From NCBI GenBank assembly GCA_903845115.1, contig CAIMWE010000063.1:1-64000 (forward strand): a stretch of DNA of 64,000 nt, given 5' to 3'. The notes under the pieces were generated by a model that was given only the letters and a program-made list of their open reading frames with translations, searched no databases and had not been told where the DNA came from. The position numbers and the translations under genes were made by a program. Of this stretch, positions 4,909-10,913 are shown piece after piece. The stretch's first letter is position 1. Each line of letters starts with the position of its first letter. The DNA is from an uncultured Acidobacteriota bacterium. Lineage in GTDB: Bacteria; Acidobacteriota; Thermoanaerobaculia; UBA5066.

Positions 4909-5394
4909 TTGAGCATTCGAATGGACGTCAAGGCGTTGATCCTCGATCCGATCGCGAACATGCCCGTCGTGATCCTTCGGGACGAGGACGGCAGTCACTT
5001 CCTCCCGATCTGGGTCGGCGTCTTCGAAGCCAACGCGATCGCTCTCCAGATGGAAGGGATCGCGACTCCACGACCCATGACCCACGACCTTCTCCGGAAC
5101 CTCCTCGCGAAGATCAAAGCCGATGTCGTGAAGGTCGTCATCAACAAGCTTCTCGAGAACACCTTCTATGCGGAGATCCACCTCGAAGTCGATGGCAAGG
5201 CGATGACGCTCGACAGCAGGCCGTCCGACGCGATCGCCCTGGCCCTTCGCTCTTCGGCCCCCGTCTTCGTCGAGGAGGCAGTCCTCGAGAAGAGCCGGGC
5301 GAGCGACGACCCTTCGGAGACCCAGAGCTCGGAACGTCTGAAGAAGTGGCTGGAGGAAGTCGACCCGGAATCGCTCGGAAAGTACCAGATGTAG
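4909..5394 (+). CDS. Bifunctional nuclease family protein (DUF151/BFN)
   Basis: 161 residues, one BFN domain. Family hallmarks are LRDEDGSHFLPIWVG, EANAIALQMEG, RPMTHDLL and the DSRPSDAIALALR motif near residue 105. In Bacteria this family is common near miaB and the parAB genes, but its role is poorly defined; DNase/RNase activity was reported for a plant member. The start is a TTG preceded by GGGAGGTC at good spacing. Cytoplasmic. Confidence 0.88.
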   Translation: MSIRMDVKALILDPIANMPVVILRDEDGSHFLPIWVGVFEANAIALQMEGIATPRPMTHDLLRNLLAKIKADVVKVVINKLLENTFYAEIHLEVDGKAMTLDSRPSDAIALALRSSAPVFVEEAVLEKSRASDDPSETQSSERLKKWLEEVDPESLGKYQM

Positions 5395-5458
5395 CTCGCT
5401 GCGGTGAGGGTTCGCCTTGAACAGGAGTGCGACTCCTCGTATCATTCCGGGCCTCCCC

Positions 5459-6214
5459 ATGATCATCACAATCGCGAACCAAAAAGGCGGAGTCGGAAAG
5501 ACGACGACCGCCATCAACGTCTCGGCCGCCCTCGCCCAGAAGAACCTCAGGACCCTCCTGGTGGACCTGGATCCGCAGGGGAACTCGACGATGTCGTTCC
5601 TGGACAGGAGGTCCATCGAAGGCTCGATGTACGACTGTCTGACCGACTCCTCGGTGGCGCTGAGATCGATCGTCCGGGAGACCTCTCTCCCGAACCTGAA
5701 AGTAGCTCCTGCGAAGATCTCCCTGGCGAAGCTCGAGGCGAAGCTGCTCGGGGAGATCGACGGGCACTACCGACTGAAGGACAGGCTCCAGGAGGAGCTG
5801 GGGCAGTACGACGCCATCATCATCGACACCCCTCCGACCCTCGGGATGATCACGGTGAACGCCCTGGTCGCGTCGACCCATATCCTGATCCCGATCCAGT
5901 CCTCCTTCTTCGCGCTCGAAGGGACCGATGACCTGCTGGAGACGATCGAGAAGATCAAGAGCCGGCCTAACCCGAACCTCCAGATCCTGGGCGTCGTGAT
6001 CACGCTCCACGACAAGCGGACGATCCTTGCGAAGGACATCCAGAGACAGATCGACGAGGTCTTCGGGGTCAAGCTCTTCAAGACGACCATCTCGAAGTCT
6101 ATCCGTCTCGAGGAGTCCCCCGCCTATCACGAGACGATCTTCACCTTCGCCCCTCGTTCGAGCGGCGCCATGGAGTACTACAGCCTCACAGAGGAGATCC
6201 TTTCCCGTGTCTAA
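5459..6214 (+). CDS. parA: Chromosome-partitioning ATPase ParA/Soj
   Basis: 251 residues from the ATG giving MIITIANQKGG. It is a Walker-type ATPase that moves or segregates ParB-parS complexes. The deviant Walker A is KGGVGKTTT, the A' motif LVDLDPQGNST, and the Walker B IIDTPPTLG. A TTG at 5417 in the same frame has a better Shine-Dalgarno (GAGGG) and would add 14 residues (MNRSATPR...). The ATG is chosen from the family's usual N-terminus, so the start is uncertain. The stop overlaps parB. Confidence 0.92.
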   Translation: MIITIANQKGGVGKTTTAINVSAALAQKNLRTLLVDLDPQGNSTMSFLDRRSIEGSMYDCLTDSSVALRSIVRETSLPNLKVAPAKISLAKLEAKLLGEIDGHYRLKDRLQEELGQYDAIIIDTPPTLGMITVNALVASTHILIPIQSSFFALEGTDDLLETIEKIKSRPNPNLQILGVVITLHDKRTILAKDIQRQIDEVFGVKLFKTTISKSIRLEESPAYHETIFTFAPRSSGAMEYYSLTEEILSRV

Positions 6215-7115
6215 GCGCCGTGGACTTCCTGAACGAGCGCAGATGCGCCACGACTCCCACTTCGTAGATCAGCTCTCCCGCGCCGACGAACTCCCCATCG
6301 GGAGACGCATCGCGATCCACATGATCGAGGCCAACCCGGATCAGCCACGGAGCAACCTCGGCGACCTCACCGACCTGAAGGCCTCGATCGCGCAGCGAGG
6401 GGTCCTGGAACCGATCCTGGTCCGGAGGCGCGACGACGGCAGGTTCACGATCATCTCCGGCGAGCGCCGTTTCCGCGCCTCGATGGAGGCCGGCCTGACC
6501 GAGATTCCGTGCATCGAGATGGAGGCCGAAGGGGCGGATCTTCTCGAGATCGCCCTGATCGAGAATCTCCAGAGGAAGGATCTGACCCCTTTCGAGGAGG
6601 CGGACGGCTATGCCGCTCTCCAGTCCCGCTATTCGTACACGCACGAGCAGATCGCGAAGTCGGTGGGGAAGTCGCGCGTCACGGTGACCGAGACCCTTCG
6701 CCTCTCGGAGCTTCCGTCGCCGGTCAAGGACGAATGTCGGCGCGCCGACATCGAGTCGAAGTCCTTCCTTCTGGAGCTGTCGCGGCTGGCCTCCCAGGCG
6801 GAGATGCTGGAGGCGGTCGAATCCTACGCTCGGGGCGACGGCACTTCGCGGGACGATCTCAGGGCGAGACGGAGGGACGGGTCCGACGCACCGCCCACCG
6901 GTTCCGACGCGAAGTTCCCGAAGAGCTACGAACTTCGGTTCCAGCCTCAGGGGATGGCCTACAGCCTGAGCGTCGTGCTCCGAGGGTCTCTCGACTCGAA
7001 GGAGGAGATCCTCCGGGCGGTGCGGGATCTCGCCAGGCGAATCGAGAGTGGCGAGATCGACCTCGAGAACCACGGCCGGTTCGCGAAGTCAGTCCCTCCG
7101 GCTCCCGGCGCCTGA
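6207..7115 (+). CDS. parB: Chromosome-partitioning protein ParB/Spo0J
   Basis: 302 residues. The start chosen is the GTG at 6207 (VSKRRGLPERAQ), which has GAGGAG 11 bases upstream and matches ParB N-termini; the track's longer version is not supported. The ParB CTPase domain shows ISGERRFRAS and ENLQRKDLTPFEEA. A helix-turn-helix follows (YTHEQIAKSVGKSRVTVTET), which would bind parS. The C-terminal part is less conserved. It overlaps parA by 8 bases. I found no clear parS palindrome in the window. Confidence 0.93.
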   Translation: MSKRRGLPERAQMRHDSHFVDQLSRADELPIGRRIAIHMIEANPDQPRSNLGDLTDLKASIAQRGVLEPILVRRRDDGRFTIISGERRFRASMEAGLTEIPCIEMEAEGADLLEIALIENLQRKDLTPFEEADGYAALQSRYSYTHEQIAKSVGKSRVTVTETLRLSELPSPVKDECRRADIESKSFLLELSRLASQAEMLEAVESYARGDGTSRDDLRARRRDGSDAPPTGSDAKFPKSYELRFQPQGMAYSLSVVLRGSLDSKEEILRAVRDLARRIESGEIDLENHGRFAKSVPPAPGA

Positions 7116-7326: not shown

Positions 7327-7403
7327 CCCTACCGTACGGCCCGACTCCCTACAATCAGCGCTCTGAAAAACACTGATTCCAGAGACGTTCCGGAGGCCAT
7401 CGG

Positions 7404-9692
7404 TTGACGCGAATCGATCGGTATCTCATCCGGGAGATCCTGCTTCCCACGGGGGTCGCTCTTCTCTCCTACACGGGGTTCATGCTGATCCGCGGACTGG
7501 TCCAGTTCTCGGACCTCGTCCTCCAGAGCACGGCGCCCCTCCGCGAGACCGCGGCCCTCCTGGCGCTCTCGCTGCCGCACATCGTGGTCCTGACGATCCC
7601 GATCTCGTTCCTCCTGGGACTGCTGATCGGCGTCGGCCGCCTGAGCGCGGACTCGGAGCTGACGGCCCTCCGGGCCTCCGGAATCGACCTGCTGAGACTC
7701 TACCGGCCGATCGTCTGGCTCTCCTTGGCGTTCACGGCCGTCACGCTCCTGATCATGATGGCGGTCGTCCCCCGGACGAACCAGATCCTGTACGACAAGA
7801 AGCTACAGATCTCGACCCTCGTCATCGCCCAGCGAATCCAGCCCGGCGTCTTCAGCTCTGACGTCCGCGGATATCGGATCTACGCCGAACGCGCCTCGGC
7901 CGATCACCGGACCCTCGAGAGCGTCATCGTCTCCGACCGGTCGGACCCTTCGGGGGGTGAACGCCTCACCCTGGCCCGTCGCGGCCACCTCGAGCTCGAG
8001 GAAGACGAGGGGCGCCTCTGGCTCAGGCTGGAGGATGCCGTCACCCAGCGCGTGAAGGACTGGGGAGAGAGCGACGACCGGGCCTCCTACCGGGAGCAGC
8101 GGACTCTCCTCGACGACACGAACCCGAAGGAGCGGACTCTTCGCCTCTCCTTCGACAAGCAGCTCCGGGAGCAGACCATCGGCGAGCTCCTGGCGAGGGC
8201 CCGGAGGGTGCGGACCCCCGTCGAGAGCCGCCTCACCTGGGTCGAGATCCACAAGAAGTTCGCCCTTCCCGCGGCCTGTCTGGTCTTCGGGCTCATCGGC
8301 CTGCCGCTCGGCATCGTCACCCGCCGCGGGGGGCGGGCGGCCGGTTTTGCCGTCTCGGTGGCGATCGTCCTCCTCTACTACGTCCTCCTGGCTGCCGGAG
8401 AGGGAAAGGCGATCGATGGGTCGGTCTCCCCTGCCGTGGCGATGTGGTTTCCGAACGTCCTCCTTCTCGTCCTCGGCCTCTGGTCGCTCTCCCGGGCGAG
8501 ACGGGACCGGTCCCTGCTGACGCTCCCGGCCTTCGCTCTCCGGACCCCTCCGGTCGAGCCCGAGGAGACGCGCCGGGGACGGCGCTTCGCGGGACGCGCC
8601 TTCTCGTCGGCCACCTTCCTCCTCGACCGGTACGTCGCCCGCCGGTTCCTCGGGGTCTTCTCCCTGGTCCTCGCCTCCATCGTCACCCTCTACCTCGTCA
8701 TCGAGTTCATGGAGATCTCCGACGACATCGCCAAGACCCACCCTTCCGCCGGACTCCTCGTGCGGTGGGCCGAGGCCCTCGTCGCCCCGATCCTCTACGA
8801 CGTGACCCCGTACGCGTTTCTCGTCGGGGCGCTCGTCGCCACGGCCGGCATGGTCCGCTCATCCGAGACGACGGCGATCCTCTCCCACGGGATCTCGCTG
8901 CACCGCGCCGTCGCCTCTCTCTTCGCCCTCGCGCTGGCGGTCGGCGCCTTCCTCTTCGTCTTCTCGGACCGGGTCGTCCCGACGGCGGCGGCCGAATCCG
9001 AGAGGCTCCGGGCGCAGATCCTCGGGCACTCGCTCGATGCCCGGTCGACCGCCGGGCAGGCCTGGTTCCGCGGCGAAGGCGGCCGTTTCTTCAGCGTGGA
9101 GGCCGCCGACGGACTCCAGCTGGCCGGCCTCACCGTTCTCCGGATCGAACCGGGCACCTTCCGTCTCCTGGAGCGGACCGACGCCCGGACGGCGGTCCTG
9201 GTCCCCGGCAAGGGCTTCCTCGTCGAGAAGGGCTGGGTCCGGCACTACGGTCCGGGAGACGAGGCGATCGGGGGACGTGCCGAACGCGCCCACTTCGTGG
9301 AGGCTCCGGAAGCTTCCCGGATCCTCCAGGCCGGGAGGGCAGACCCTCGCCTGATGACGACCGCCGAGCTCTGGAGATACATCCGCGCGCGGCGGAACGC
9401 GGGGGCCGACGTCTCGGCCCTCTCGACGAGTCTCTACCAGAAGTCCGCGTCCTCGATCTCGGCGCTCATCCTCACGCTCGTCGGACTCCCCTTCGCTTTC
9501 CGGTACGGAAAACGAGGGGCGGTCGCCGGCGTCGGCGTCGCCATCCTGATCGCCCTCGCGTACCTCTTCACCTCCTCGATCCTGACGAAGCTGGGGGTGA
9601 CCGGCTCCCTCCCGCCCCTCCTCGCGGCCTGGAGCGCGAACGTGCTGTTCGGCCTGGGGGCCGCGTGGGGTCTCCTCGGCGTCCGGACGTGA
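7404..9692 (+). CDS. LptF-LptG fusion, lipopolysaccharide export permease
   Basis: 762 residues, twice the usual ~360 of LptF or LptG. The first half (1-~370) is a complete LptF/G-type unit: RYLIREILLPTG at the N-terminus, three-helix bundle, a periplasmic beta-jellyroll region, then three helices ending near FPNVLLLVLGLWSL. After an Arg-rich linker a second unit starts with FLLDRYVARRFLGVF (~res 403) and runs to LFGLGAAWGLLG. Both halves keep the paired-permease topology, so one chain could replace the LptF/LptG heterodimer that works with LptB. The TTG start has GGAGG upstream. A terminator follows. Confidence 0.88.
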   Translation: MTRIDRYLIREILLPTGVALLSYTGFMLIRGLVQFSDLVLQSTAPLRETAALLALSLPHIVVLTIPISFLLGLLIGVGRLSADSELTALRASGIDLLRLYRPIVWLSLAFTAVTLLIMMAVVPRTNQILYDKKLQISTLVIAQRIQPGVFSSDVRGYRIYAERASADHRTLESVIVSDRSDPSGGERLTLARRGHLELEEDEGRLWLRLEDAVTQRVKDWGESDDRASYREQRTLLDDTNPKERTLRLSFDKQLREQTIGELLARARRVRTPVESRLTWVEIHKKFALPAACLVFGLIGLPLGIVTRRGGRAAGFAVSVAIVLLYYVLLAAGEGKAIDGSVSPAVAMWFPNVLLLVLGLWSLSRARRDRSLLTLPAFALRTPPVEPEETRRGRRFAGRAFSSATFLLDRYVARRFLGVFSLVLASIVTLYLVIEFMEISDDIAKTHPSAGLLVRWAEALVAPILYDVTPYAFLVGALVATAGMVRSSETTAILSHGISLHRAVASLFALALAVGAFLFVFSDRVVPTAAAESERLRAQILGHSLDARSTAGQAWFRGEGGRFFSVEAADGLQLAGLTVLRIEPGTFRLLERTDARTAVLVPGKGFLVEKGWVRHYGPGDEAIGGRAERAHFVEAPEASRILQAGRADPRLMTTAELWRYIRARRNAGADVSALSTSLYQKSASSISALILTLVGLPFAFRYGKRGAVAGVGVAILIALAYLFTSSILTKLGVTGSLPPLLAAWSANVLFGLGAAWGLLGVRT

Positions 9693-9746: not shown

Positions 9747-10913
9747 TTACCTGGTGACCGGAACGGCGGCCCCTACCGCGGCGGCGAGAGCGGCCGCCAC
9801 GTCGGTCCGCTCCCACGTGAACTCGGGAAGCCGCCGCCCGAAGTGGCCGTAGGACGCCGTCTTGCGGTAAATGGGGCGCCTCAGGTTCAGCGACTCGATG
9901 ATCCCCTTCGGGGTGAGCTTGAAGTGGTCGCGGACGAGCTGGGGGAGCTTCTCCTCGTCCACCTTCGCGGTCCCGAAGGTGTCGACGTAGACCGAGACGG
10001 GATCGGCGACGCCGATCGCATAGGCGAGCTGGACCTCGACCCGGTCGGCGAGACCGGCCGCCACGAGGTTCTTCGCGATGAACCGGGCCATGTACGAGGC
10101 GGAGCGGTCGACCTTGGTGGGGTCCTTGCCGGAGAAGGCTCCCCCGCCGTGCCGCCCCATCCCCCCGTACGTGTCGACGATGATCTTCCGCCCGGTCAGC
10201 CCGGTGTCGCCCTGCGGACCCCCCACCACGAACCGCCCGGTCGGGTTGATGTGGAATTTCGTCTTCCCGTCCAGGAGGGCCGGGTCGATGACCGGCCGGA
10301 TGATCTCGTCCTCGACGGCCTGCCGGAGCTCCTTGATGTGGATCGACTCGGCGTGCTGGGTCGAGATCACGACGGCGTCCACGCGGACCGGCCGCGACCC
10401 CTCGTACTCGACGGTGACCTGGCTCTTTCCGTCGGGACGGAGCCAGTCCAGGTGGTGCGACCGGCGGGCCTCGGCCAGCCGCATCGTCAGCCGGTGGGCC
10501 AGCGTGATCGGGAGCGGCATGAGCTCTTCGGTCTCCCGCACGGCGAACCCGAACATCAGCCCCTGGTCTCCCGCCCCGCCGGTGTCGACCCCCATGGCGA
10601 TGTCCGGAGACTGCTTGTCGATGGACGCAAGGACGGCGCAAGTCTGGTCGTCGAAGCCGTACTTGGCCCGCGTGTACCCCACGTCGCGAATCGTCTTCCG
10701 GACGATGCCCGGGATGTCGACGTAGGTCGAGGTCGTGATCTCCCCCGCCACGAACGCCATGCCGGTCGTCACGAGCGTCTCGCATGCGACCCGTCCCATG
10801 GGATCGTCCGTGAGGATCGCGTCGAGGACGGCGTCGGAGATCTGATCGGCGATCTTGTCCGGGTGGCCCTCGGTGACCGATTCCGACGTGAACAGCGTGC
10901 GCGTGATGCCCAT
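9747..10913 (-). CDS. metK: S-adenosylmethionine synthase
   Basis: 388 residues, normal length. It makes SAM from methionine and ATP. The sequence shows the N-terminal [21 protein letters not shown] motif, the [10 protein letters not shown] hexapeptide-like segment (residues ~118-127), and the P-loop-like [17 protein letters not shown]. It is the last gene of the minus-strand series, 81 bases after rsmD, and is closed by a strong terminator. The gap holds a hairpin but no recognisable SAM riboswitch. Confidence 0.97.

Follow-up and report, generated by a model that had tools for sequence, protein, structure and literature searches.

LptF and LptG are fused into a single permease chain throughout the Acidobacteriota

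Introduction

The lipopolysaccharide (LPS) ABC exporters LptB2FG(C) with solved structures (from E. coli, Klebsiella, Pseudomonas, Acinetobacter, Vibrio and Enterobacter) have much in common with the protein studied here: membership of PF03739, six transmembrane (TM) helices and a beta-jellyroll in each half, and the coupling-helix glutamates. In those complexes, however, LptF and LptG are a heterodimer of two chains, whereas here they form one polypeptide, with an identity to E. coli LptF and LptG of about 19% per half. The role of the coupling-helix glutamates (E. coli LptF E84 and LptG E88) has been described, and the LPS entry gate is placed between LptF TM5 and LptG TM1 (PMC10094684). At the level of genes, the adjacent lptF-lptG pairs of Gemmatimonadota, Fibrobacterota, Latescibacterota, Eiseniibacteriota, Calditrichota, Balneolota and E. 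coli share the F-before-G order with our locus but encode LptF and LptG in separate reading frames, both of which have a start and a stop. Full-size ABC transporters carry both transmembrane domains in one chain. They resemble the fused LptFG in the covalent joining of the transmembrane halves, and differ from it in that the latter keeps its ATPase separate and has the LptF/G fold.

Here we analyse the fused gene, which we call lptFG, in a window of 64,000 nucleotides (the whole stretch of DNA under study), together with its relatives within and outside the phylum.

Results

The locus had previously been described from its letters alone, in a sequence-only reading, as one frame of 762 residues at 7404-9692 with two LptF/G-type units, and both the coordinates and the description prove correct. 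The units are two PF03739 domains, and the features of the locus are as follows.

4909..7115, + strand: bifunctional nuclease, ParA and ParB, conserved neighbours upstream of lptFG and outside the fusion
7392..7396, + strand: GGAGG, Shine-Dalgarno-like, 7 bases 5' of the TTG start (sequence)
7404..9692, + strand: lptFG fused gene, 762 aa, TTG start (open reading frame)
7404..8504, + strand: LptF half, residues 1-367 (Pfam, NCBIfam, AlphaFold model)
7656..7658, + strand: E85 codon, coupling-helix glutamate of the LptF half, aligning with E. coli LptF E84
8505..8609, + strand: linker, residues 368-402, net basic, predicted disordered (pLDDT <50, alignment)
8604..9689, + strand: LptG half, residues 401-762 (Pfam, NCBIfam, AlphaFold model)
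8865..8867, + strand: E488 codon, coupling-helix glutamate of the LptG half, aligning with E. coli LptG E88

Two halves of different type

Pfam PF03739 (LptF_LptG) matches the product twice over its full profile, at residues 6-364 and about 409-757, with a whole-protein score of 470.6 bits (E=4e-141). The units score 260.9 and 221.7 bits against a curated cut-off of 27.9, which places both in the family, and no other Pfam domain was found in the product. The halves are nonetheless distinct: the first scores 217.1 bits with TIGR04407 (LptF) versus 139.1 with TIGR04408 (LptG), the second 201.7 bits with TIGR04408 versus 83.4 with TIGR04407. Each half alone stays below its equivalog cut-off (230 bits for TIGR04407, 240 for TIGR04408), and the whole protein passes both because the scores of its halves add up. 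No second PF03739 locus was found in the genome, an assembly of 305 contigs, and lptFG is its sole source of LptF and LptG.

The proposal that LptF and LptG are fused in this order, F first, is borne out by these family models, by a tree of the halves (see below) and by the fold. In an AlphaFold model made with an alignment of 17 homologues (mean pLDDT 74, pTM 0.64, values that speak for the fold of each half and not for their mutual placing), each half comprises six TM helices and a coupling helix together with one periplasmic beta domain, a beta-jellyroll. The coupling helix spans residues 85-91 in the LptF half and 488-494 in the LptG half, and the beta domains about 157-236 and about 553-633. 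Foldseek matches the model to solved LptF and LptG chains, the best being 6mjp_G (E=1.2e-12, TM 0.86 by target length), with 6mit and 9doh also among the matches.

Between the halves, residues 368-402 are disordered in the model and make a linker of about 35 residues, a stretch poorly conserved in length and sequence that measures about 26-64 residues in 20 homologues (median 36). Such variability and predicted disorder would fit a single precursor that is cut within the linker to give an ordinary two-chain LptFG. We nevertheless find this improbable: no processing signal was seen, signal peptidases cannot reach a linker on the cytoplasmic side, and the fusion has been retained phylum-wide. 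A chain that stays joined is the reading that we follow below.

Conserved residues and partner proteins

The coupling-helix glutamate is present in 26/26 fused halves of each type, and in all unfused halves aligned as well. Certain basic residues of E. coli LptG, which we take to be LPS contacts, are mostly not conserved in the fused proteins or in most of their unfused relatives. The substrate contacts of the fused protein, judged from this alignment, may thus differ from those of E. coli. One could go further and suppose that the fused permease exports a non-classical lipid, for example another outer-membrane glycolipid, since the contact residues are not kept. However, the same positions also vary in the unfused LptG of other phyla, so they cannot tell fused from unfused proteins and are uninformative about the substrate, and the fused permease is accompanied by LptB, LptC/LptA-type and LptD proteins. 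Export of a different lipid is therefore quite unlikely. The genome holds one LptB match above the cut-off (341.7 bits) and an LptD barrel; because these accompany a sole LptF/G locus, the chain most likely forms the core of an ordinary LptB2FG exporter.

A single frame across the phylum

The source is a draft assembly, and the sequence-only reading had itself raised the possibility of a missed stop, that is, of a sequencing or assembly artefact that had erased a stop and a start between what are truly two genes. This possibility is rejected by independent genomes and by codon periodicity, and we give it practically no weight. No stop interrupts the junction in an independently assembled MAG of 88% identity (L023), in a relative of 57% identity (L022) or in any of the matched genomes of the phylum sample. 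The periodicity of GC content by codon position continues through the linker without a break, with GC3 of 0.89, 0.89 and 0.91 in the LptF part, the linker and the LptG part. Moreover, there is no in-frame ATG, GTG or TTG between residues 347 and 436, which leaves the LptG half without a separate start near its N-terminus.

How far the fusion extends among relatives was a question left by the sequence-only reading, and the answer is far wider than that reading implied: it is the rule across the phylum. Among 20 relatives, all those with a match carry lptFG as one frame, the only short one (559 aa, in G005) being truncated where the stretch ends. In a 72-genome sample of the phylum, 71 genomes were matched and all 71 have the fusion in a single frame, with all 150 rows among the matches listed lying in frames of 744-987 aa. 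A 297-genome sample gives the same single-frame pattern among the matches listed; the one short frame among these, of 513 aa in G298, was considered as an exception and rejected, as its contig ends there. The most divergent family (f33) also has the fusion, and so do the Aminicenantes. The LptFG fusion is standard in the phylum Acidobacteriota as a whole and not the oddity of a single genome.

Two genomes of the phylum samples, G035 and G161, have four LptF/G matches each. In G035 these make up two fused copies, each on a contig of its own, which suggests a paralogous second LptFG.

Outside the phylum, the two-gene arrangement that had been presumed normal is what we see. At 16 outgroup loci (from Gemmatimonadota, Fibrobacterota, Latescibacterota, Handelsmaniibacteriota, Eiseniibacteriota, Calditrichota and Balneolota) there are two adjacent genes, often overlapping, encoded on the same strand in the order F, G. 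The lptF and lptG genes of E. coli are likewise separate, with a one-base overlap.

Origin of the fusion

In a maximum-likelihood tree of 74 half-sequences, all LptF split from all LptG at 100/100, and the fused proteins follow this split throughout, their first halves grouping with LptF and their second halves with LptG. The fusion has therefore joined two ancient paralogues. A recent tandem duplication in which a single permease gene gave two copies of the same type, as membership of both halves in one Pfam family might suggest, is rejected by this tree and is extremely improbable, since the halves show only distant similarity (about 40 bits by phmmer) and are separated by the 100/100 branch, each on the side of its LptF or LptG counterparts from other phyla.

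A single label change suffices for each fused group, with support of 53/87 for the F halves and 93/92 for the G halves. The fusion probably arose once, at or near the base of the Acidobacteriota, the support for a single origin being moderate. Neighbouring lptF and lptG genes could have fused at that point through the loss of a short overlap.

A fused LptFG also occurs on a contig labelled Clostridiales (L034). In the tree it nests within the Aminicenantes, so the label is probably wrong.

Genomic neighbourhood

The nuclease, ParA and ParB genes upstream of lptFG are also found there in the related genomes L022-L025. In Aminicenantes it is the other flank of lptFG that carries the nuclease gene, encoded on the opposite strand. 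Just 3' of the fused gene, metK (S-adenosylmethionine synthetase, 9747-10913, - strand) is convergent with it; it is also near lptFG in L022, L023, L030 and L031.

A second fused chain

In E. coli the LptF-LptG and LptC-LptA joints are both non-covalent. Elsewhere in our genome (contig C292, locus L085, 5985-7991), a frame of 669 aa carries LptC and LptA-type domains, in the order of one N-terminal TM helix, LptC and then three LptA/LptD_N stretches. The LptC match is of 27.6 bits (cut-off 21), and LptA/LptD_N scores 51.6 bits over all three stretches (cut-off 20.4); no further LptA-type match was found in the genome. The frame abuts lptB, followed by genes that resemble rpoN, hpf, hprK and rapZ, named by reading their sequences.

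The same domain order occurs in 9/9 relatives tested, and both matches exceed their cut-offs in 8/9, the LptC match of L088 falling below. Across the 72-genome sample, LptC is matched in 45 genomes and shares one frame with LptD_N in 41/45, a count that leaves out four co-occurrences in which overlapping matches lie in probable LptD frames. LptC was not found in a short stand-alone frame in this sample, the shortest frame (449 aa) standing beside a contig end. Because the domain matches are weak, it is with moderate confidence that we describe the 669-aa chain as looking like a covalent LptC-LptA bridge.

Discussion

The product of lptFG is very probably the core of an ordinary LptB2FG exporter, a single 12-TM chain that supplies both subunits, derives from one ancestral fusion and works through an unchanged cycle. 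Both transmembrane subunits of LptB2FG would be made as one polypeptide with the F half leading, in which the cytoplasmic C-terminus of LptF TM6 would run through the flexible linker into the cytoplasmic N-terminus of LptG. The halves would then fold into the usual pseudo-symmetric pair; each coupling helix would dock one copy of LptB, the ATPase being encoded separately, and the periplasmic beta domains would hand LPS to the bridge protein. As a cytoplasmic connection from LptF TM6 to the start of LptG, the linker would keep the two sides tied together near the LPS entry gate, presumably without blocking it.

It follows soundly from the covalent joining that LptF and LptG would be paired 1:1. 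The likely effect, and the benefit that the fusion may bring, is an obligatory co-synthesis of the two unequal halves in that ratio, while transport itself would proceed through the same cycle as in the two-chain complexes.

An HMM survey of 903 genomes counts Acidobacteria as true LPS diderms and states that they apparently lack lptF and lptG (PMC8871954). The absence stated in that survey may be explained by a fused gene that the orthologue models missed. Among the open-licence literature we found no paper describing an LptF-LptG or an LptC-LptA fusion. The double-PF03739 architecture is presumably already present in public domain databases.

Should the second chain be what it looks like, the Lpt machine of Acidobacteriota would be consolidated at two joints, with LptF and LptG covalently linked and LptC and LptA in one membrane-anchored periplasmic chain of ~670 aa. 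We consider the arguments for and against this wider picture to be evenly balanced. If it is true, the bridge would be a part of fixed length, instead of an assembly of free LptA.

The fusion can serve as a phylum-level marker, and fused genes such as this one call for caution in surveys of presence and absence. LptFG, and probably also LptC-LptA, occur here naturally as single chains, which would be useful for the study of the Lpt complex, whose asymmetric halves and bridge are otherwise hard to fix in place. With the LptFG fusion, a well-known machine is seen in a clean variant that extends through the phylum, and in these bacteria it seems to be built from fewer, longer chains.
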